A DNA stretch of 36,045 bases from an uncultured Bacteroidales bacterium (GTDB lineage: Bacteria > Bacteroidota > Bacteroidia > Bacteroidales > UBA4417). A program made the position numbers and the translations under genes. Location of the stretch: contig CAJAXK010000366.1 in the NCBI GenBank assembly GCA_903946925.1, positions 1 to 36,045 on the forward strand, given 5' to 3'. The notes beneath the pieces were generated by a model, which was not told the DNA's origin, did no database searches, and saw only the letters and a program-made list of their open reading frames with translations. Shown here piece after piece: positions 58 through 11,133 of this stretch (position 1 is the first letter of the stretch; the number at the start of each line of letters is the position of its first letter).

Positions 58-606
58 TTATTTCTTAAATGGTAATCCAAATTCTTTTAACAAAGCCATA
101 CATTCTTTGTCAGTTTTGGCTGTGGTAACAAAAGTGATATCGAGGCCGTTAATTTTCAAAACTTTGTCGATTACAACCTCTGGGAAAATAATCTGTTCGG
201 TGATCCCCATGGTATAATTTCCGCGGCCATCGAAACCTTTAACATTAATACCCCTGAAGTCACGTACACGTGGTATTGCGATAGCAACCAACCTGTCCAG
301 GAATTCGTACATCTGCTCACCTCTTAGGGTTACGCGAACGCCAACCGGCATGTTTTTACGCAACTTGAAGTTTGAGATATCCTTTTTTGATTTAGTGGAA
401 ACTGCTTTCTGACCTGCAATTGCTGTCATTTCGGCTACACCGACATCAATAATTTTTTTATCGGAAATTGCAGTCCCTAAACCCTGATTTAAACAGATTT
501 TAACAAGTTTAGGTACTTGCATGTGGTTTTTGTACTGGAATTGTTCAGTCAATGCCGGAACAACTTCCTGGTGGTACTTTTCTTTGAGGCGAGCTGAATA
601 TTCCAT
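58..606 (-). CDS. rplE: 50S ribosomal protein L5
   Basis: L5 of the large subunit, which binds 5S rRNA and contacts the 30S head. The 182-residue product matches the family length. It has the conserved core [18 protein letters not shown] and ends in a [20 protein letters not shown]-like tail typical of L5. Its ATG overlaps the stop codon of rplX by one base (TAATG), so translation is probably coupled. It is co-directional with all neighbours in the spc part of the operon. No Shine-Dalgarno is seen, as expected for this phylum. Confidence 0.98.
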
Positions 607-929
607 TATTTAATTACCTCCCCTGATTTTTTTGAAACACGAACGGTTTTGTTTGTTTTTTCATCTTTCTTATAACCCACCCTGGTAGCTTTACCGCTTC
701 CGTCAATAAGCATAAGGTTAGAGATATGAATAGGCATTTCCTGTTTCAGGATTCCGCCTTTTGGGTTTTTAGCGTTAGCTTTGGTATGTTTCGTAGCCAA
801 GTTTACATTTTCAACAATAGCTTTGTAACTTTCTACCTCAACTTCAAGAACTTTTCCGGTTTTACCTTTTGAGTTGCCGGCAAGGATCTTCACGTTGTCC
901 CCTTTTTTAATATGGACTTTAATACTCAT
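606..929 (-). CDS. rplX: 50S ribosomal protein L24
   Basis: L24 is an assembly-initiating protein of the 50S subunit that binds 23S rRNA domain I. The N-terminus has a KOW motif ([19 protein letters not shown], about residues 9-27), followed by the usual basic linker with [17 protein letters not shown]. At 107 residues it has normal family length. It lies between rplN and rplE in the canonical order; its stop overlaps the rplE start by one base. Confidence 0.97.
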
Positions 930-941
930 AGTTTCTGTAAA

Positions 942-1310
942 TTAAAGCACTTCAGGTGCAAGTGAAACAATTTTCATATACTGTTTTTCCCTAAGTTCCC
1001 TCGAAACTGGCCCGAAAATACGGGTACCAATCATTTCTCCGGCGTTATTGAGAAGAACTACGGCATTGTCGTCGAACCTAATATAAGAACCATCTGCGCG
1101 ACGGATTTCCTTGCTGGTGCGAACCACAACGGCTTTAGCTACAGTTCCTTTTTTTATGTTTCCTGATGGGATGGCTTTTTTCACCGAAACGATGATTTTA
1201 TCGCCTACAGACGCATATTTCCTTCGTGTTCCACCAAGGACCCTTATACAGAGTACCTCTTTGGCACCGCTGTTATCGGCTACCGTAAGTCTTGATTCCT
1301 GCTGTACCAT
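942..1310 (-). CDS. rplN: 50S ribosomal protein L14
   Basis: L14 sits near the factor-binding side of the 50S subunit and forms an intersubunit bridge. The 122-residue protein begins [19 protein letters not shown], the family signature, and continues with [18 protein letters not shown]. It starts two bases after the rpsQ stop, showing tight operon packing. The length and both termini agree with the family, so the start is secure. Confidence 0.98.
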
Positions 1311-1312
1311 AA

Positions 1313-1570
1313 TTATTTTGCTCTTTCAATGATTTCAACTAATCTCCAACATTTTGTTTTGCTCAGAGGACGCGTTTCGGATATGCGTACAGTATCACCT
1401 ATACCACATTCATTTTTTTCGTCGTGTGCAGCAAATGTAGAAGTCTTTTTAACGAACTTGTGGTATTTAGGGTGTTTTACACGTCTTTCCACTTGAACTA
1501 CAATGGATTTCTCCATTTTATTGCTTACAACAAGACCGATTTTTTCTTTTCTGAGATTTCTTTCTTCCAT
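1313..1570 (-). CDS. rpsQ: 30S ribosomal protein S17
   Basis: S17 is a primary 16S rRNA binding protein of the 30S body. The 85-residue sequence has the S17 OB-fold pattern: a [16 protein letters not shown] start, [13 protein letters not shown] in the middle and [20 protein letters not shown] near the end. It lies between rpmC and rplN, 14 bases after the rpmC stop, as in most bacteria. Confidence 0.97.
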
Positions 1571-1584
1571 TGCTGTGATAATTA

Positions 1585-1803
1585 TTATTTATTAGCCTTG
1601 TTAGCAACTGCCGATTCTAAACTGCGCTTATGAAGTTCAGTTACCAAACGGGCTACAGTCCTGCGATAAGCCTTAATTTTATTAGGGTTCTCAAGTGGGG
1701 AAACTGCATGGTTCATTTTTAGCTTGCTGAGCTGCATGCGTTCATCATCGAGTCTCTCAATCAACTCTGGAGTTGACAGTTCACGAATAACTTCTTGTTT
1801 CAT
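1585..1803 (-). CDS. rpmC: 50S ribosomal protein L29
   Basis: L29 is a small two-helix protein at the polypeptide exit tunnel, next to L23. The 72-residue product has the L29 pattern ([20 protein letters not shown], then [18 protein letters not shown]), with a slightly extended C-terminal tail. It sits between rplP and rpsQ. Its small size and position make the call firm. Confidence 0.95.
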
Positions 1804-1847
1804 TTTGCTTCTATTATACGATTGGCAACTTTTGACTGTAAGCCAGA

Positions 1848-2276
1848 TTAAGCTAAATTTTCTTCATAATCCCTGCGAACAACGTATTTTACGGCTATCG
1901 GCAGTTTTTGTGATCCCAAGCGGCATGCTTCTTTGGCTATTTCGGCACTTACGCCTTCCAATTCAAAAAGCAAACGACCTGGGGTTATTCTTGCAACGAA
2001 ATATTCCGGGGCACCTTTACCTTTACCCATACGTACTTCGGCAGGTTTTTTTGTAACAGGTTTGTCAGGGAATACTCTGATCCATAATTGACCTTCACGT
2101 TTCATGTAACGGGTGATTGCCTGACGGGCAGCTTCAATCTGACGACCGGTTAGCCAAACTTCTTCAAGAGCTTTTATACCGAATGAACCGAAAGATAATT
2201 CGTATCCACGTTTGGCATTGCCTTTCATTTTGCCTTTCTGCTGCTTCCTGTATTTTGTTCTTTTAGGCTGTAACAT
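1848..2276 (-). CDS. rplP: 50S ribosomal protein L16
   Basis: L16 organises the A-site region of the 50S subunit. The protein is 142 residues and starts [19 protein letters not shown], the standard L16 N-terminus. It contains [20 protein letters not shown] and the [10 protein letters not shown] segment. It lies between rpsC and rpmC in the conserved S10-operon order, with a 38-base gap after rpsC. Confidence 0.98.
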
Positions 2277-2314
2277 CGCTAATACTATATGATGATGAGT
2301 ACTTTATTCCTTAC

Positions 2315-3088
2315 TTATTTTTTATTCCTTGGACGACGATCACCGCCACGGTCACCACCTCTTTCGCGATCTCCGCGTGGGCCTTTGCCTGATGGTCTGC
2401 CAGTGCCATGTGATGGTTTATTATCTTTAACAATATTGTCAGTTCCAGGTACCAAATCTACTTTACCATAAATCTCGCCTTTGCAAATCCAGGTTTTAAT
2501 ACCCAATTTACCATAAGTAGTTTGAGCCTCAGCTAAAGCATAGTCGATATCAGCGCGTAATGTGTGCAATGGAATACGGCCTTCTTTGAATTGTTCGCGA
2601 CGGGCCATTTCCGCTCCACCTAAACGTCCTGAGATTTGAACCTTAATTCCTTCGGCACCGATACGCATTGCGGAAGTAATTGCAGTTTTGATAGCTCTCC
2701 TGTAAGAAATACGTCCTTCGAGCTGACGTGCAATGGTATTGCCAACAATAACAGCATCCAATTCAGGGCGTTTAATTTCAGATATGTTAATCTGAACTTC
2801 CTTACCGGTAAGTTTTTTTAATTCTTCTTTAAGTTTATCAACTTCCTGACCAGCTTTACCAATAATAATTCCTGGGCGGGCTGTGTTGATGGTCACAGTT
2901 ACCAATTTGAGCGTGCGTTCAATAATGATATGTGAAATGCCAGCTTTTGAAAGACGTGCATTCAGGTATTTACGAATTTGATCGTCTTCTACCAGTTTAC
3001 TTGCAAATTTCTTACCACCGTACCAGTTAGAATCCCATCCTTTAATGATACCTAACCTGTTGCCGATTGGATTACATTTTTGTCCCAT
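2315..3088 (-). CDS. rpsC: 30S ribosomal protein S3 with basic Arg/Gly-rich tail
   Basis: S3 lines the mRNA entry channel of the 30S subunit. The N-terminal [21 protein letters not shown] and the KH-domain loop [17 protein letters not shown] (about residues 70-90) are characteristic. The body is followed by a tail of about 45 residues (from roughly 211) rich in Gly, Arg, Asp and Lys, with repeated RGGDR-type units. Total length is 257, longer than the E. coli protein. Similar basic tails occur in other Bacteroidota S3 proteins as far as I recall, so the extension is probably genuine. It sits between rplV and rplP. Confidence 0.97.
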
Positions 3089-3100
3089 TAGGCTGCTTGA

Positions 3101-3526
3101 TTATTTAGTTACTATTTCAGTTTCTTCCACTTTCACCCTACTGCCCAAAATAACAGTAACATGATTTGAACGCTTTTTGATGCGGTGAGCCCGACCCTGA
3201 GGTGCAGGTTGTACCCTTTTCAGACTACGGCCACCATCAGTTTTAACCTCCATAATGTAGAGATTGCTGTCTTCCATACGCACACCTTCATTTTTCTGTT
3301 GCCAGTTAGCTAAGGCAGATTTCAAAAGCTTTCCAAGTTTCTCGGCAGCGTAGTTTGGAGTATGTTGCAGAATGTGCATTGCAGTTTCTACATTTTTTCC
3401 GCTTACCAGATTGGCTACAAGCCGCATTTTTCTGGGTGAGGAAGGGCAGTCGTTCAATTTGGCAAAATACATTGTTTTATTTGCCTCTTTTCTCTGCTCA
3501 GCTGAATTATGTTTTCTTGATCCCAT
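3101..3526 (-). CDS. rplV: 50S ribosomal protein L22
   Basis: L22 contributes a beta-hairpin to the wall of the nascent-peptide tunnel. The 141-residue product has the family core: KLNDCPSSPRKMRLVANLV, then ALANWQQKNEGV, and the tunnel hairpin/tail GRSLKRVQPAPQGRAHRIKK. The N-terminus is about 20 residues longer than in E. coli, and the C-terminus has a short acidic extension. It is placed between rpsS and rpsC. Confidence 0.97.
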   Translation of the reverse strand: MGSRKHNSAEQRKEANKTMYFAKLNDCPSSPRKMRLVANLVSGKNVETAMHILQHTPNYAAEKLGKLLKSALANWQQKNEGVRMEDSNLYIMEVKTDGGRSLKRVQPAPQGRAHRIKKRSNHVTVILGSRVKVEETEIVTK

Positions 3527-3541
3527 TGTTGCTAAGTCTTA

Positions 3542-3814
3542 TTACTTCTTACCTTTATTTCCGGCATGTCCCCTAAAAATACGGGTAGGACTGAATTCCC
3601 CTAATTTATGCCCAACCATGTTCTCGGTCACATAAACAGGTATAAACTTATTCCCGTTATGAACAGCTATAGTTTGACCAACAAAGTCAGGAGTTATTGT
3701 TGATGACCTTGACCAGGTTTTAACTACAACTTTCTTTTTACTCTCAATCAGGTCAAGAACCTTTTTTTCAAGTTTATAATCTATGAAAGGGCCTTTTTTT
3801 AGCGAACGGCTCAT
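3542..3814 (-). CDS. rpsS: 30S ribosomal protein S19
   Basis: S19 is a 30S head protein near the P-site. The start [19 protein letters not shown] and the end [15 protein letters not shown] are standard S19 signatures, and the 90-residue length is typical. It lies between rplB and rplV in conserved order. Confidence 0.98.
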
Positions 3815-3832
3815 GATGCTTTATGTATTAGA

Positions 3833-4657
3833 TTACTTCTTCCTTCTTTCAATAATGTATTTATCCGAAGCATTGGTCTTCGAGCGGGTTTTGTAACCCT
3901 TGGCTGGAGTGCCCTTGCGTGTACGTGGATGTCCACCAGTAGCCCTACCTTCGCCTCCACCCATTGGGTGATCAACAGGGTTCATAACAACCGGACGTGT
4001 GCGAGGCCTACGACCTAACCATCTTGAGCGACCAGCTTTACCTGAAACTTCGAGTTGATGATCACCATTAGATACCATACCCACAGTAGCTTTACAGGTT
4101 TGAAGGATTAACCGGGTTTCTCCCGAAGGCATCCTAACAACAGCAAACTTACCGTCCCTCGACATTAACTGAGCTGATGCACCAGCACTACGAACTAATT
4201 TGGCGCCTTGTCCAGGACGAAGCTCAATGTTGTGAATCATTGTACCGAAGGGGATCTCGCTCATAAAGAGTGCGTTTCCAACTTCAGGAGCAGCTCCTAC
4301 GCCCGACAACAATTCCATTCCCACTTTAAGACCTTGGGGTGCTAAAATATACCGCTTTTCACCATCGGCATACCACAACAAAGCTATGCGGCCGGTGCGG
4401 TTTGGGTCATACTCGATCGTTTTAACAACGGCCGGAATATTATCTTTTTCGCGTTTGAAATCGATTACACGATAATGTTGTTTATTACCACCACCCATGT
4501 AACGCATAGTCATTTTTCCGTCGTGATTACGGCCACCAGACTTATGCTGAGGTTCAAGCAAACTTTTCTCGGGCACCGAAGTGGTGATTTCGTCGAAGGT
4601 GCTGATAACCTTAAAACGCTGACCGGGTGAGGTTGGTTTAAATTTCTTGAGAGCCAT
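3833..4657 (-). CDS. rplB: 50S ribosomal protein L2
   Basis: L2 is a core 50S protein near the peptidyl-transferase centre. The 274-residue protein begins [17 protein letters not shown] and has the OB and SH3-like domains. The C-terminal signature reads [12 protein letters not shown], where E. coli has DHPHGGGEG. This His-to-Met change is, as far as I recall, usual in Bacteroidota and supports the phylum assignment. The gene starts six bases after the rplW stop. Confidence 0.98.
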
Positions 4658-4663
4658 TATTCC

Positions 4664-4954
4664 TTAGATATTGCTGTAAAAATCTATTGATTCGCCTTTA
4701 GCTAATGTGATGATAGCCTTTTTAAATGAATTGGTCTTGCCTGAAAGAACACCGGCTTTTGTAAAGCGCGATTTCCGTTTACCAGCGTATGTCATTGTGT
4801 TGACGTCTTCAACTTCAACGTTATACAAATCTTTCACAGCTTTTTTAATCTGCAATTTATTTGCACGTTTGTCAACTACAAAGCCATAACGTCCCAGTTT
4901 TTCGCCAAGGGCTGTCATTTTTTCAGTAATGATTGGCTTGATGATGATACCCAT
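4664..4954 (-). CDS. rplW: 50S ribosomal protein L23
   Basis: L23 sits at the tunnel exit and docks trigger factor and SRP. The 96-residue product has IIKPIITEKMTALGEKLGRYGF at the N-terminus and the conserved ANKLQIKKAVKDLYNVEVEDVNT-type segment. Position between rplD and rplB matches the S10 operon. Confidence 0.96.
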   Translation of the reverse strand: MGIIIKPIITEKMTALGEKLGRYGFVVDKRANKLQIKKAVKDLYNVEVEDVNTMTYAGKRKSRFTKAGVLSGKTNSFKKAIITLAKGESIDFYSNI

Positions 4955-4991
4955 CGCTAATTTATTTTAATGTTATTGCTAACGGTATTGA

Positions 4992-5621
4992 TTAATTTTC
5001 AAACGATTTTTCAATTTCGCTTACAGAACTTACCAACAATATAAGATTCTGGGCATTGAGTATGTCGTAAGTATTAAGATCGCAGGCGCGGGTTACTTTT
5101 GCCCTTTTCAAATTACGCGACGAAAGCACTATATTTTGAATATTTTCGGGCAATACCATCAATGTTTTACGACCTTGAAGGTTTAACGCTGACAAAACTG
5201 AGGCAAACTCACGGGTTTTTGGAGTTTCAAAGTTGAAATCTTCAATAACCATAATGTTGTTATCTTTTACCTTGTAGGCCAAAGCTGAAAGACGCGCCAA
5301 TTTTTTCAATTTTTTGTTCAGTTTGAAACTATAATCGCGTGGCTGAGGACCAAATGCACGAGCTCCTCCCCGGAATAAAGGTGATTTACGGCTACCTGCT
5401 CGCGCCCCACCAGTTCCTTTTTGCTTTTTCAGTTTCTTTGTGCTTCCACTCACCATTGATTTTTCGAGTGAAGCATGAGTGCCTTGACGCTGATTTGCAA
5501 GATACTGTTTGGTATCGAGGTAAATTGCGTGATCATTAGGAGTTACCTCGAAAATACTATCGCTGAGAGTAACTGTTTTGGCTGTTTTTTCGCCCTTGAT
5601 GTTATATACTGTTAGCTCCAT
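4992..5621 (-). CDS. rplD: 50S ribosomal protein L4
   Basis: L4 binds 23S rRNA domain I and extends a loop into the exit tunnel. The loop is recognisable as [19 protein letters not shown] followed by [14 protein letters not shown]. The 209-residue length is normal. The first ten bases overlap the end of rplC, so the two are probably translationally coupled. Whether it autoregulates the operon as in E. coli cannot be told from the sequence. Confidence 0.97.
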
Positions 5622-6241
5622 CTTTCAACAATTACATATGAACCACTAGCTCCTGGAATAGAACCTTTAATTACAAGCAGATTTTTTTCAGGTACAATTT
5701 TCATAATCTGCAAGTTTATCATCTTAACGCGATTGACTCCCATGTGGCCAGCCATGCGCATTCCCTTGAAAACTTTGCTTGGGTAGGAAGAAGCTCCAAC
5801 TGAACCCGGTGCCCTAAGCCTGTTGTGCTGACCGTGGGTAGCACCACCAACACCCGAAAAACCATGACGGCGAACTACACCCTGAAAACCTTTACCAATT
5901 GTTGTTCCAACAACATCAATAAATTCACCTTCTTCAAAAATATCCACTTTTAAAATATCACCAAATGTTTTTTGATGATCAGCTTCAAAACGTGTAAATT
6001 CTTTAACAATCCGTTTAGGTGCAATCCCAGCCTTCTTAAAATGACCAATTTCAGCTTTGTTCGAGTGCTTTTCTTTCTTGTCCTCATACGCAAGCTGAAT
6101 AGCTTCGTAACCGTCATTCTCCAAGGTCCTGACTTGGGTAACAAAGCAAGGACCAGCTTCGATAACCGTACATGCTACGTTTTTGCCATTGGCATCAAAC
6201 AAGCTAGTCATTCCTATTTTTTTTCCGATAATTCCTGACAT
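5612..6241 (-). CDS. rplC: 50S ribosomal protein L3
   Basis: L3 is an assembly-initiating 50S protein whose finger reaches the peptidyl-transferase centre. The start [19 protein letters not shown] and the signature [22 protein letters not shown] are clear. At the position where E. coli has the PrmB-methylated Gln (GSIGQ), this protein reads [20 protein letters not shown], so the methylation site is absent. The length of 209 is standard. It follows rpsJ in normal order. Confidence 0.98.
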
Positions 6242-6298
6242 TATATCGAGATATTAATGTTTCTTATTTTATTCTTTCAATCCTAAACCTGATTAAGA

Positions 6299-6604
6299 TT
6301 AGATTTTAATTTCTACTTCAACACCGCTTGGCAACTCAAGTTTCATAAGAGCGTCAATAGTTTTCGCAGTTGAACTGTAGATATCAAGCAACCTTTTGTA
6401 AGAACTCAACTCAAACTGTTCGCGCGACTTTTTGTTTACGAAAGTTGATTTAAGAACGGTATAAATCTTTTTATCAGTTGGAAGAGGAATTGGCCCGTTA
6501 ACAATTGCACCGGTCAATTTTACCGTCTTCACGATCTTTTCGGCAGATTTGTCCACCAAATTATGATCGTACGATTTCAGCTTTATTCTAATCCTCTGGT
6601 TCAC
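6299..6604 (-). CDS. rpsJ: 30S ribosomal protein S10
   Basis: S10 is a 30S head protein that also takes part in antitermination with NusB. The 101-residue product has the family pattern [36 protein letters not shown] and a C-terminal [16 protein letters not shown]. It directly follows fusA with a 35-base gap; the tuf gene often found here in Proteobacteria is absent. Confidence 0.98.
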
Positions 6605-6639
6605 GTTGTAATCTTTATTACGTTATTATGACTGAATTT

Positions 6640-8736
6640 TTATCCTTTGATCTTGGCAATTACATCTTCGGCAATGAACTTTGGTACTTCCTGGTAATGT
6701 GAGAATTCCATACTTGAATTTCCCCTCCCGGATGTTACAGTCCTTAAACTTGTAACATATCCAAACATTTCCGACAACGGCACTTTAGCTTTGACAATCT
6801 GATATTTGATTTTGGCATCAATGTTTTCAACCACAGCCCTACGCTTGTTAAGGTCACCGGTTACATCACCAACATAATTATCAGGACAAACAACTTCTAT
6901 TTTCATGATAGGCTCAAGCAGAACACTTTTAGCTTTGCGGGCAGCCTCTTTGAAACCAATTTTAGCACAGATTTCAAAAGCTAATGCATCGCTATCAACT
7001 GCGTGGAACGAACCATCAATTAATTTAACTTTCATGCTTTCTAGAGCAAATCCGGCCATTACGCCATTCGACATTGCAGCTTTAAAGCCTTTTTCAATAG
7101 GTCCGATAAATTCTTTTGGAATATTTCCGCCTTTTACTTCATTATCGAACTGAAGCCCTTTAAATTCAGAATCATCAGCAGGTCCAAGTTCAAAGATGAT
7201 ATCAGCGAATTTCCCTTTACCACCAGTTTGTTTTTTATAAACTTCGCGATGATGAACTGTAGCAGTAACAGCTTCACGGTAAGCTACTTGTGGTGCGCCT
7301 TGGTTTACTTCAAGTTTAAATTCCCTACGCAAACGGTCAGTCAGGATATCTAAGTGCAATTCGCCCATTCCAGATATAACGGTCTGACCAGTTTCCTGAT
7401 CGGTACGAATCTTGAAGGTTGGATCTTCTTCAGCCAATTTTAATAGGGCAATATCAAGTTTGTCCAAATCATCCTGGGTACGTGGCTCAATAGCAACACT
7501 TATAACAGGCTCTGGGAAAGACATTGACTCCAAAATAATTGGATTTTTTTCATCACACAATGTATCGCCGGTACGAATTTGTTTAAATCCAACAGCGGCA
7601 CCTATATCACCAGCTTCAATAAATTCCAAAGGAATTTGTTTGTTGGCGTGCATTTGCATTATGCGTGAAATACGCTCTTTCTTTCCGGTTGAGGCATTCA
7701 GTACATAACTTCCTGACTGAAGGGAACCTGAATATACCCTGAAGAAAGCTATACGACCTACAAATGGATCAGTTGCAATTTTGAAAGCCAAAGCGGCAAA
7801 AGGTTCATCTGAATCAATATGGCGAATTTCTTCTTTTTCTGTATCTGGATTTATACCAGTAACCGCTGGAACATCATAAGGATTAGGCAGATATAAACAA
7901 ACAGCATCTAAAAGATTTTGAACGCCTTTGTTTTTAAACGCTGAACCACAAATTACCGGGGTAATCTTCATTTCGAGTGTAGCCTGACGAATAATGCGGC
8001 GCATTTCTTCCTCAGTTATTGAGTTATGGTCGTTAAAGAATTTCTCCAACAAAACATCATCCTCTTCGGCACAACCTTCAACGAGACGGGTACGATAAAC
8101 GTCAACTATTTCGACCAAATCTTCAGGAACAGGTCCTTCGGAATAATGCATCCCCTTGGAATCATCATCCCAGATAATTGCCTTATTGCTAATCAAATCA
8201 ACAATTCCTTGAAAAGTATCTTCGGAACCAATTGGAATTTGCAGTGGAACTGCATTTGCACCCAACTTTTCTTTAAGCTCGTCAATAACTGCAAAGAAAT
8301 CAGCACCGGCGCGATCCATCTTGTTGATGAAACAAATACGTGGTACACTGTATTTATCAGCTTGTTTCCATACAGTTTCACTCTGTGGTTCAACACCACC
8401 AACTGCACAAAAAACAGCAACAGCTCCATCCAATACCCTAAGTGAACGTTCTACTTCAACAGTAAAATCAACGTGTCCCGGAGTATCTATAATATTTAAG
8501 CGGTAATCTTGCGATTCAAATTCCCAACTAACTGTAGTAGCAGCAGAGGTGATGGTAATTCCACGTTCCTGTTCCTGGATCATCCAGTCCATTGTAGCGG
8601 TACCATCATGTACTTCACCAAGCTTATAATTACGGCCGGTGTAATACAATATACGCTCCGTCGTCGTCGTTTTGCCGGCGTCGATATGGGCCATAATGCC
8701 TATGTTTCGCGTATATTTCAGTTTATCTGATGACAT
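6640..8736 (-). CDS. fusA: Translation elongation factor G
   Basis: EF-G is the GTPase that drives ribosomal translocation. The G-domain motifs are [15 protein letters not shown] (G1, about residues 16-30), a [10 protein letters not shown] switch I segment, DTPGHVDF (G3) and NKMD (G4). Domain IV and the C-terminal EF2 domain follow, with [17 protein letters not shown] near the end. At 698 residues it is full length. It sits between rpsG and rpsJ, the usual str-operon position. A second EF-G paralogue, common in this phylum, would be elsewhere. Confidence 0.98.
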
Positions 8737-8765
8737 GTATTAACCTTCCTTTAAAAAACTTAAAA

Positions 8766-9233
8766 TTAGAACCGGAAATGCGAGAAAGCTTTGTTAGCTT
8801 CTGCCATACGGTGTGTATCTTCTTTCTTTTTGAATGCTGAACCTTCTTCTTTGTAGGCTGCCATAATCTCACTGGCTAATTTAGAAGCCATTGATTTTTC
8901 GTGCCTACGACGTGAGTAGAGAATAAGGTTTTTCATTCCTATCGACTGTTTACGGCCTGGACGTATTTCAGATGGAATCTGAAAAGTAGCACCGCCAATA
9001 CGACGGCTGCGAACCTCTACGTTAGGAGTAACATTAGCCAAGGCTTTTTTCCAGACTTCCAAACCGTCTTCTTTAAGTTTTTCAGTTACGAGTTCAATTG
9101 CGTCGTAAAAAATGTCGTAAGCGCAGTTTTTCTTTCCACGCTCCATCATATTGTTTACAAACTTGGTAACAACCTGTTCGTTGAACTTTGGATCAGGTAG
9201 TATGACGCGTTTTTTGGGTGATGATTTCCTCAT
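8766..9233 (-). CDS. rpsG: 30S ribosomal protein S7
   Basis: S7 nucleates assembly of the 30S head and contacts the E-site tRNA. The product is 155 residues, beginning [19 protein letters not shown]. It includes [18 protein letters not shown] and the [19 protein letters not shown] signature, ending in [15 protein letters not shown]. It follows rpsL by 32 bases. Confidence 0.98.
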
Positions 9234-9265: not shown

Positions 9266-9679
9266 TTATTTTTTCTTGCCTGCTACAGGTTTCTTAGCCA
9301 ATGCACCTTTTTTTGGACGCTTTGTACCGTATTTTGATCGGCTTTGATTCCGGCCATCTACGCCAGATGTGTCTAAAGCTCCACGAATAATATGGTAACG
9401 TACACCTGGCAAATCTTTCACACGACCACCTCTGATCATTACGATTGAGTGCTCTTGTAAATTATGGCCTTCACCTGGGATATAAGCGTTTACTTCTTTA
9501 CCATTTGTGAGACGAACCCTTGCTACTTTACGCATTGCAGAGTTAGGTTTCTTAGGTGTAGTTGTATAAACCCTTGTACAAACCCCGCGGCGCTGAGGAC
9601 ATGAATCCAATGCCGGTGATTTGCTCTTATCTGTCAGTTTTTGACGACCTTTACGAACCAGTTGTGCTATTGTAGGCAT
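9266..9679 (-). CDS. rpsL: 30S ribosomal protein S12
   Basis: S12 is the decoding-centre protein. The start [15 protein letters not shown] and the conserved loops [17 protein letters not shown] and [18 protein letters not shown] are present. The Lys residues in both loops, where streptomycin-resistance changes usually fall, are the wild-type residues. The 137-residue length includes a basic C-terminal tail. It is the first gene of the operon and lies about 50 bases downstream of a clear promoter at 9732-9761. Confidence 0.98.
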
Positions 9680-9731
9680 ATTGAATCTATTGATTTTTCT
9701 GTTATTTCAGGTATTTTTTTCTAAAGGGCTG

Positions 9732-9761
9732 CAAAAGTAAAACTTAATTTTTGATTATCAA
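9732..9761 (-). promoter_or_regulatory. Promoter of the rpsL operon (Bacteroidota type)
   Basis: On the minus strand TTG, 19 bases, then TACTTTTG. This matches the primary-sigma consensus of the phylum (TTG/TTTG, 17-23 bases, TAnnTTTG). Transcription would begin about 50 bases upstream of the rpsL ATG, leaving a short leader. Confidence 0.7.
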
Positions 9762-9813
9762 TATGATAACCTAAATATATTTGTGTTATTTTTGACAGAT
9801 TTTCGCAAATAGC

Positions 9814-9852
9814 AAAAAAAAATGCCCTTTGCAGATTTCTCCTACAATGGGC
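9814..9852 (-). terminator. Intrinsic terminator of the candidate RNA
   Basis: GCCCATTG pairs with CAAAGGGC (one mismatch, 13-base loop) and is followed by a run of nine T after one A. The loop contains TAGGAG, which is complementary to CTCCTA at the 5' end of the same transcript. Confidence 0.65.
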
Positions 9853-10055
9853 TTTCATCTTTAACTACGGGGTATAACTATGATAATAAGACGTTTAACA
9901 CAAGAGGCTTTCGCAAAAGCTGCAAACAGTTTCCTGCCTACTTTATCGTGTTTTGAAACCTATATCGTCTTACTTTCTCAGGTTTCCCGGACTGTAAAAA
10001 ACTTTAGTCCTTCGCTAATAAACGGTTGCATTATAAAAATCCTGCCGCTTTAGGA
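9814..10055 (-). ncRNA. Candidate structured small RNA upstream of rpsL
   Basis: A gene-free stretch with its own promoter (10061-10090) and terminator (9814-9852) that would give a transcript of about 240 nt. Perfect complementary pairs seen on the minus strand: GGACT/AGTCC (10010-10006 with 9993-9989), GAAACCT/AGGTTTC (9986-9980 with 9961-9955), TAAGACG/CGTCTTA (9972-9966 with 9893-9887) and AACAC/GTGTT (9952-9948 with 9901-9897). Inside the last are AAG/CTT and AGGC/GCCT, plus a CAG-GAAA-CTG mini-hairpin. The TAAGACG arm lies in the loop of the GAAACCT hairpin, so pairing with CGTCTTA would form a pseudoknot. No convincing ORF is present. I do not recognise it as tmRNA, RNase P RNA or SRP RNA; 6S RNA or an operon leader are possible alternatives. 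Confidence 0.55.
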
Positions 10056-10060
10056 GGGTG

Positions 10061-10090
10061 CAAAGATACAACTTATTTATTACGTGCAAC
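10061..10090 (-). promoter_or_regulatory. Promoter of the candidate RNA
   Basis: On the minus strand TTG, 18 bases, then TATCTTTG at 10061-10068, a near-perfect match to the phylum consensus. No start codon follows within 240 bases that opens a credible gene, so it appears to serve the RNA. Confidence 0.7.
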
Positions 10091-10238
10091 ATTAAGCATA
10101 AAATAATTACCATATATTTATACACATACTTATTAATTATAGCTAATTAATTTAAAATGAATTGCTTGAACTGTTTTTACTAACATTCTCCTGATAAAGA
10201 AAATGCCGTAAGCCGTCAATTTTGGCAAAAAACAGGTT

Positions 10239-10985
10239 TTATAAGCGGTTTTTAAGTATCATTACCGTGCTGTCCAAGTCGGGAATTACAACTAATTGTT
10301 CAGGGATTTTAGCCGAAAACTCGTCAACTGCCTTCACAAGGCCTTCCCACTTTTCGTTATAATCGTGAATAATTATAACTCCCCCTTGTGAAAGCCTTGG
10401 GTAAAAATACTCAAGGCCAGCTTTGGTGGGGTTATACAAATCGGCATCCATGTTTACGAGGGCGAAATTGTATTCTTGAAGCCCAACAGCAGAATCGGGA
10501 AAATGGCCGGGATGCACTTTTATTTTATCCGTATTGCCCCCAATGTTTTTCAATACCTTATTAATAGAGGTATCGGCAAAGTCGTTTGATGAATAGGTGG
10601 CTGCCTTCCCGGTTTCAGGTTTCAGGTCTGCATTGGTAAACCCTTCGAATGTATCGAACAAATGAAACATCCGGCTTGAATCCATCAAATGTATCAGCCT
10701 TGCGCTTTCGCCTTTGTAAACACCAAGTTCGGCAAAATCGCCTTTTACATCCCTTTGTTTTAATCGTTGGACCTGAATCCAAAAATTGTAAAGCCTAACT
10801 TTATCGGGATAATTGCGTGATAGCTTTAGTAGTTCGTGGCTAATGTGGCCATCTTTGCGCGCTTTCTCCCAAACTGGAGGCTCGTAGGTTTCGCCGAAAA
10901 ACATATCCCAAACATATTTGATCAAGAAAACCAATACGATAAGGATGATGGAAAAATTGAACAATTGGAATAAAGGAAGGTGCAT
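10239..10985 (-). CDS. TylF/MycF-like O-methyltransferase with N-terminal membrane anchor
   Basis: This is likely an S-adenosylmethionine-dependent methyltransferase of the TylF/macrocin-O-methyltransferase type. It has AELGVYKGESARLI (SAM-binding loop), FHLFDTFEGF and the metal-site-like segment FALVNMDADLYNPT, ending with GGVIIIHDYNEKWEG. A hydrophobic stretch (FSIILIVLVFLIKYVW) near the N-terminus suggests membrane anchoring. The ORF track begins 24 codons upstream, but I prefer the ATG at 10983-10985: the extra residues look non-coding, and a partial -7 element (TTACTTTG) lies just upstream of this ATG. The substrate is unknown; family members act on sugars of polysaccharides or natural products. 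No sugar genes are adjacent. Confidence 0.75.
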   Translation of the reverse strand: MHLPLFQLFNFSIILIVLVFLIKYVWDMFFGETYEPPVWEKARKDGHISHELLKLSRNYPDKVRLYNFWIQVQRLKQRDVKGDFAELGVYKGESARLIHLMDSSRMFHLFDTFEGFTNADLKPETGKAATYSSNDFADTSINKVLKNIGGNTDKIKVHPGHFPDSAVGLQEYNFALVNMDADLYNPTKAGLEYFYPRLSQGGVIIIHDYNEKWEGLVKAVDEFSAKIPEQLVVIPDLDSTVMILKNRL

Positions 10986-11133
10986 GGCGGATTGGGTAAA
11001 AGCGTATGCAAAGTAACGGAAAAAACGTGAATAGGTGTTTGGGTTGTGTCTGCACACCCGCAGGGCGCCTGAAAGGTTACCCTTAATTCCTCGGGATCAA
11101 AAAGCAACAGCCCTCTTTGCAATTAAAAAGATG

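Follow-up and report, generated by a model that had tools for sequence, protein, structure and literature searches.

A conserved pseudoknotted RNA ahead of the str-S10-spc operon in part of the Bacteroidales, a probable ribosomal-protein operon leader

Background

To our knowledge, regulation of the main ribosomal-protein operon is almost unstudied in the Bacteroidota. The closest described systems are RNA elements that precede rpsL, or other ribosomal-protein genes, in various bacteria. The rpsL motif of Candidatus Pelagibacter is a bulged stem that runs into a three-stem junction and, in the passages of the original report that deal with it, is assigned to Pelagibacter and marine metagenomes only (Meyer et al. 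2009, PMC2704228). Naville and Gautheret (2010, PMC2965389) described rpsL-leaders in Listeria, Xanthomonas, Pseudomonas and Rickettsia that contain terminators and are proposed attenuators, with S7 as the suggested ligand. For the Bacteroidia, leaders have been published for L13 and S4, and the table of 20 leaders in that work has no entry for rpsL (S12) (Eckert and Weinberg 2020, PMC7247131).

Locus and gene context

The locus described here lies in "the window", the whole 36,045-nucleotide stretch of DNA that was analysed, from an uncultured Bacteroidales bacterium. A gap of 559 bases (9680-10238) is flanked by rpsL and by a gene for a TylF-like methyltransferase, both on the minus strand. 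An earlier note on this DNA had read in the gap a promoter, about 240 bases with no credible gene, a terminator and a separate promoter for rpsL. All are present on the minus strand, in the order Bacteroidota-type promoter, structured RNA of about 240 nucleotides, terminator and rpsL promoter. Downstream of the RNA and on the same strand lie the genes of the str-S10-spc operon (more than 15 ribosomal-protein operon genes), identified with Pfam:

9266-9679, minus strand: rpsL (ribosomal protein S12), the first gene of the operon
58-9233, minus strand: remaining operon genes in the window, rpsG, fusA, rpsJ, rplC, rplD ... rplB, rplV, rpsC, rplP, rplN, rplX, rplE

Among 27 loci found with a covariance model (see below), the gene 5' of the RNA varies by family and rpsL is constant on the 3' side. 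The TylF-like methyltransferase gene (10239-11057, minus strand) is the 5' neighbour within the genus and for some other families as well (L034, L048), but not for most. No coding frame is shared across the RNA region; the small frames differ among congeners, and a coding explanation was rejected for this reason.

Architecture of the RNA

The elements recognized in the window are given below from 5' to 3' along the transcript, with the evidence for each.

10012-10048, minus strand: lineage-specific 5' hairpin, GCGGCAGG...CAACCG..., seen by eye when 13 homologues are aligned, its stem sequences changing in concert
9989-10010, minus strand: P2 hairpin GGACU/AGUCC, immediately 5' of the core (homologue alignment, structure covariation test)
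9981-9988, minus strand: 5' strand of P4 (GGGA...), which pairs with 9868-9874 and closes the core (swap test; a long covarying helix in relatives)
9955-9986, minus strand: core, P3 hairpin GAAACCU/AGGUUUC with the conserved loop GAnAAnnUAAGACnnUAU, near-invariant in all homologues, the exact pattern retrieving rpsL-linked loci
9980-9986 and 9955-9961, minus strand: the two P3 strands, GAAACCT and AGGTTTC in the DNA
9966-9972, minus strand: 5' strand of the pseudoknot, TAAGACG, inside the P3 loop
9897-9952, minus strand: P5, stem AACAC/GUGUU (9948-9952 and 9897-9901) with variable inner hairpins (swap and covariation tests)
9887-9893, minus strand: 3' strand of the pseudoknot, CGUCUUA (swap and covariation tests)
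9868-9874, minus strand: 3' strand of P4, UACCCCG (homologue loci, covariation test)

In the core a variable P4 surrounds a nearly invariant P3 and a variable P5, and nAGAC in the P3 loop pairs with a GUCUn located after P5. Many families have a long P4, such as AACUUUAAGA/UCUUAAAGUU in L030 and AAUUCAGG/CCUGAAUU in L036. The helices that the earlier note had named were all found in the window. When the single sequence is folded, its energy only mildly beats that of shuffles (z -2.08, 3/200), a mildly unusual value of the kind that chance helices in a non-functional intergenic gap might also give. Folding energy alone is weak evidence, and proof of the structure was therefore taken from relatives.

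Distribution

A DNA search found homologues in congeners, always before rpsL. When a covariance model built from ten of these congener homologues (R1) was run on 295 genomes of the order, it found the RNA in 27, each time directly upstream of rpsL-rpsG-fusA. Class- and phylum-wide searches with R1, a genus-based model applied with strict filters, gave no match outside the order. A second model, R2, placed the RNA 5' of rpsL in 23 of 95 family representatives; 20 of these are clear matches, set off by a gap from the last three.

The exact core pattern was also scanned over 85,462 species genomes (one genome per species) and occurred in at least 118 places. Among the pattern matches listed, at least 107 lie on the same strand as rpsL and 135-403 nt 5' of it, 3 more are cut off where a locus ends, next to the methyltransferase gene, and 8 in unrelated taxa look like chance. 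Assemblies that carry the RNA are assigned to the Bacteroidales or the Bacteroidota, most of them from uncultured organisms; Lentimicrobiaceae and Marinilabiliales are among the groups represented. An apparent tandem arrangement of the RNA in L103 was rejected as a scaffolding artefact, with identical cores flanking a gap of Ns.

Covariation in relatives

The pseudoknot is part of neither R1 nor R2, and its test is therefore not circular. Across 23 family-level sequences, 84.5% of cells pair, as compared with 78.2% in shuffled and at most 54% in slid controls; the covariation score is 0.269, versus 0.166 for shuffles (0/500) and at most 0.116 for slid controls, where the shuffles leave relatedness in place and the slid controls retain it. 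The outer pseudoknot pair is seen as GC, AU, CG, GU and UG. In the larger set of 111 unique sequences, 77 carry the complement of their own nAGRC downstream, against a mean of 39.6 (maximum 53) after strands are swapped between sequences. A graded version of the swap test on the 111 sequences had the pseudoknot, P4 and P5 each beating all 5000 permutations, and an upstream control that does not exceed them. For the whole structure the covariation score is 0.411 versus 0.156, with an alignment that was itself fitted to P2, P3, P4 and P5.

The RNA has a conserved secondary structure with covariation. The proposal that TAAGACG and CGTCTTA form a pseudoknot is borne out by both the 23 family representatives and the 111-sequence swap test, and the aligned gaps upstream of rpsL contain the covariation that had been sought there, in the pseudoknot, P4 and P5. 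The long helix of the earlier note stands in part: AACAC/GTGTT is supported, and relatives do not conserve the AAG/CTT and AGGC/GCCT pairs inside it. Covariation and conservation over the 23 family representatives refute the notion that the helices are accidental, which has a negligible probability.

In one lineage (L052, L122, L132, L140, L156) a second hairpin follows the core, some 60 nt ahead of the start of rpsL, and its stem changes among the members (GGCGCC..GCGCC, AGCGC..GCGCU, GACGC..GCGUC).

Promoters and terminator

10061-10089, minus strand: promoter 1, -33 TTGCACG (10083-10089) and -7 TATCTTTG (10061-10068), a box found upstream of the core in homologues and before tRNA-Arg genes
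9815-9852, minus strand: intrinsic terminator, stem 9824-9852 and T-run 9815-9822, -13 kcal/mol, its stem sequence changed and the stem retained in close relatives
9732-9761, minus strand: promoter 2, for rpsL, -33 TTGATA (within 9753-9761) and -7 TACTTTTG (9732-9739)

A scan of the window for E. coli-type promoters and terminators missed both kinds of signal, because the promoter is of the Bacteroidota type and a single A stands between the terminator stem and the T-run. Transcription from promoter 1 probably starts near 10055. Of 111 homologues, 105 have the TANNTTTGC box 5' of the core. A stretch nearly identical to the promoter and start region TATCTTTGCACCCTC (10042-10079 of the window) precedes a tRNA-Arg(ACG) gene both in this genome and in congeners (L014, L015, L017-L021, the copy of this genome being L020:1501-1535), which suggests that promoter 1 is of a strong stable-RNA type shared with tRNA-Arg.

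The arrangement 3' of the RNA differs among relatives. A good terminator follows it in the close relatives of the window. By a strict definition, 76 of the 111 homologues have a promoter box separating the RNA from rpsL, and by a relaxed one 84 do, leaving 35 (strict) or 27 (relaxed) with none; L002 is counted among the latter kind solely through a mutated box (TACTTTCG). Cases in which no promoter separates the RNA from rpsL include L027, L030, L035, L038 and the congener L011, a member of the same genus whose sole promoter box is 5' of the RNA.

Comparison with Rfam

The window was scanned against Rfam 15, RF00013 included, at the gathering cut-off and with E up to 10, and only sub-threshold matches appeared, the best of which lies outside the RNA; 13 homologous loci likewise returned no family. 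The earlier remark that the fold was not recognisable thus agrees with the Rfam check. This best match is to the S15-Flavobacteria leader model. It spans promoter 2 and the beginning of rpsL (window 9677-9739, minus strand), scores 25.9 bits where the cut-off is 46.5, and probably reflects the common TTTGCA promoter box and an A-rich leader.

A divergent 6S RNA had been among the identities offered. Its expected size and equipment are similar (about 200-240 nt, with its own promoter and terminator), and no other RNA is seen to take the 6S role, since 6S-Flavo (RF01685) has no match in the whole genome. The RNA, however, has a conserved pseudoknot and an invariant hairpin loop, where a 6S RNA would be one long hairpin opened by a central bubble, and the congener G012 has a weak 6S-Flavo match on a different contig; a 6S identity is very improbable and was dropped. 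The G012 match itself (C2:5374-5508, L168) scores 36.9 bits against a cut-off of 85 and is possibly the true 6S RNA of the genus.

A probable leader of the operon and its alternatives

The RNA is probably the 5' leader of the str-S10-spc operon in part of the Bacteroidales, most likely as a cis-acting feedback element. In 27-35 of the 111 relatives it would, judged by sequence, be the rpsL 5' leader, there being no promoter box between the two. Among the options raised beforehand, a ribosomal-operon attenuator fits best, given that recognisable copies lie upstream of rpsL and that some relatives, L011 included, have no intervening promoter. The account that most simply covers all these relatives is a cis-acting leader, with attenuation and a back-up rpsL promoter in some lineages.

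The main rival to the leader reading is a stand-alone, trans-acting small RNA, such as a protein-binding or regulatory one, whose gene is fixed before rpsL and which is cut from the rpsL 5' UTR where the second promoter is missing. The intervening promoter box (in the window and the 76 homologues) and the terminator of close relatives mean that the RNA may be a separate transcript, and its strong promoter with a sequence common to tRNA genes, as well as the very high conservation of the P3 loop, would suit such a molecule. Yet no copy away from rpsL was found in any Bacteroidota genome searched (pattern matches as listed), and the homologues that lack an intervening box also speak against it; a stand-alone RNA is thus possible but doubtful. 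The description "independent" in the earlier note applies to the anatomy of the window's close relatives, with terminator and second promoter, and fails beyond them. A related and rather unlikely proposal is that the core belongs to an undescribed class of stand-alone RNAs, which bind a protein or another ligand and link ribosome supply to another signal, and that in several Bacteroidales lineages the core was freed from the operon by gain of a terminator, with rpsL left to the second promoter.

Under the leader reading, transcription would start at the strong upstream promoter, and the nascent RNA would fold into the pseudoknotted core, with P4 enclosing P3 and the P3 loop paired with the strand past P5. 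By analogy with other ribosomal-protein operons, a product of the operon in excess over rRNA might then bind the invariant P3-loop/pseudoknot core. Candidate ligands would be S7, for which E. coli offers a precedent, or S12, encoded by the nearest gene, and the data favour neither. The bound protein would stabilise the core and expression of the operon would presumably fall. In the close relatives of the window we infer control by termination at 9815-9852, with promoter 2 supplying basal expression; in relatives with neither a terminator nor a second promoter, the element could act on the rpsL start region or through mRNA decay.

Local alignment to the 16S and 23S rRNA of a congener (G004) gave scores like those of shuffles, and rRNA mimicry was rejected at this level of sequence comparison. 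A switching antiterminator was also sought and was not consistent across relatives. By eye, a candidate that joins the 3' strand of the core to the 3' arm of the terminator has 5-7 bp in several congeners and 3 bp in the window. Several congeners show, again by eye, the alternative pairing UCCCG/ACGGG, which in L008 and L009 carries a U-to-A / A-to-U change. Attenuation through UCCCG and the terminator arm ACGGG is not claimed, as the window has 3 bp and a mismatch interrupts the pairing in L002.

Another reading is an element for processive antitermination or for transcription speed, through which factors would be loaded onto RNA polymerase where a very long operon begins. The number of genes in the operon is in keeping with this, and the invariant loop may suit protein binding, but in the window a terminator and a second promoter follow directly downstream, and we know of no precedent for an element of this kind in the Bacteroidota. 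It is considered improbable.

The RNA offers a defined molecule, with a covariation-supported pseudoknot and an invariant loop, that heads the operon in 23 of the 95 Bacteroidales families sampled. A ligand can be searched for directly among S7, S12, L4 and others. The direct-leader and the terminator-plus-second-promoter arrangements form a natural series in which to ask how a leader might turn into an independent RNA.

Comparison with known systems

The Pelagibacter rpsL motif is similar in being, as its published account has it, a structured RNA in the rpsL 5' UTR that heads a fused str-S10-spc operon; it differs, as far as the description of the motif in that account goes, in that a pseudoknot is not mentioned, and the Bacteroidales RNA has no Rfam match (PMC2704228). 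The rpsL-leaders of Listeria, Xanthomonas, Pseudomonas and Rickettsia have no common sequence or structure reported even among themselves, and none is from the Bacteroidota (PMC2965389); here too, the Bacteroidales RNA is set apart by its lack of an Rfam match. The S7 site of the E. coli str operon would be alike in exerting feedback on the same genes, but it is located in the rpsL-rpsG interval and resembles the S7 site of 16S rRNA, whereas the Bacteroidales RNA precedes rpsL and no resemblance to rRNA was found. The L13 and S4 leaders of the Bacteroidia belong to the same class of bacteria and are elements of a similar kind in different operons (PMC7247131). 6S-Flavo RNA (RF01685) is a stand-alone RNA of the Bacteroidota, with a different architecture and no match in this genome. 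Because the published leaders differ and no Rfam 15 family matches either the window or the 13 homologous loci, the RNA, for which a search of open-access full text found no earlier description, is a new family of a known kind, probably the ribosomal-protein operon leader.
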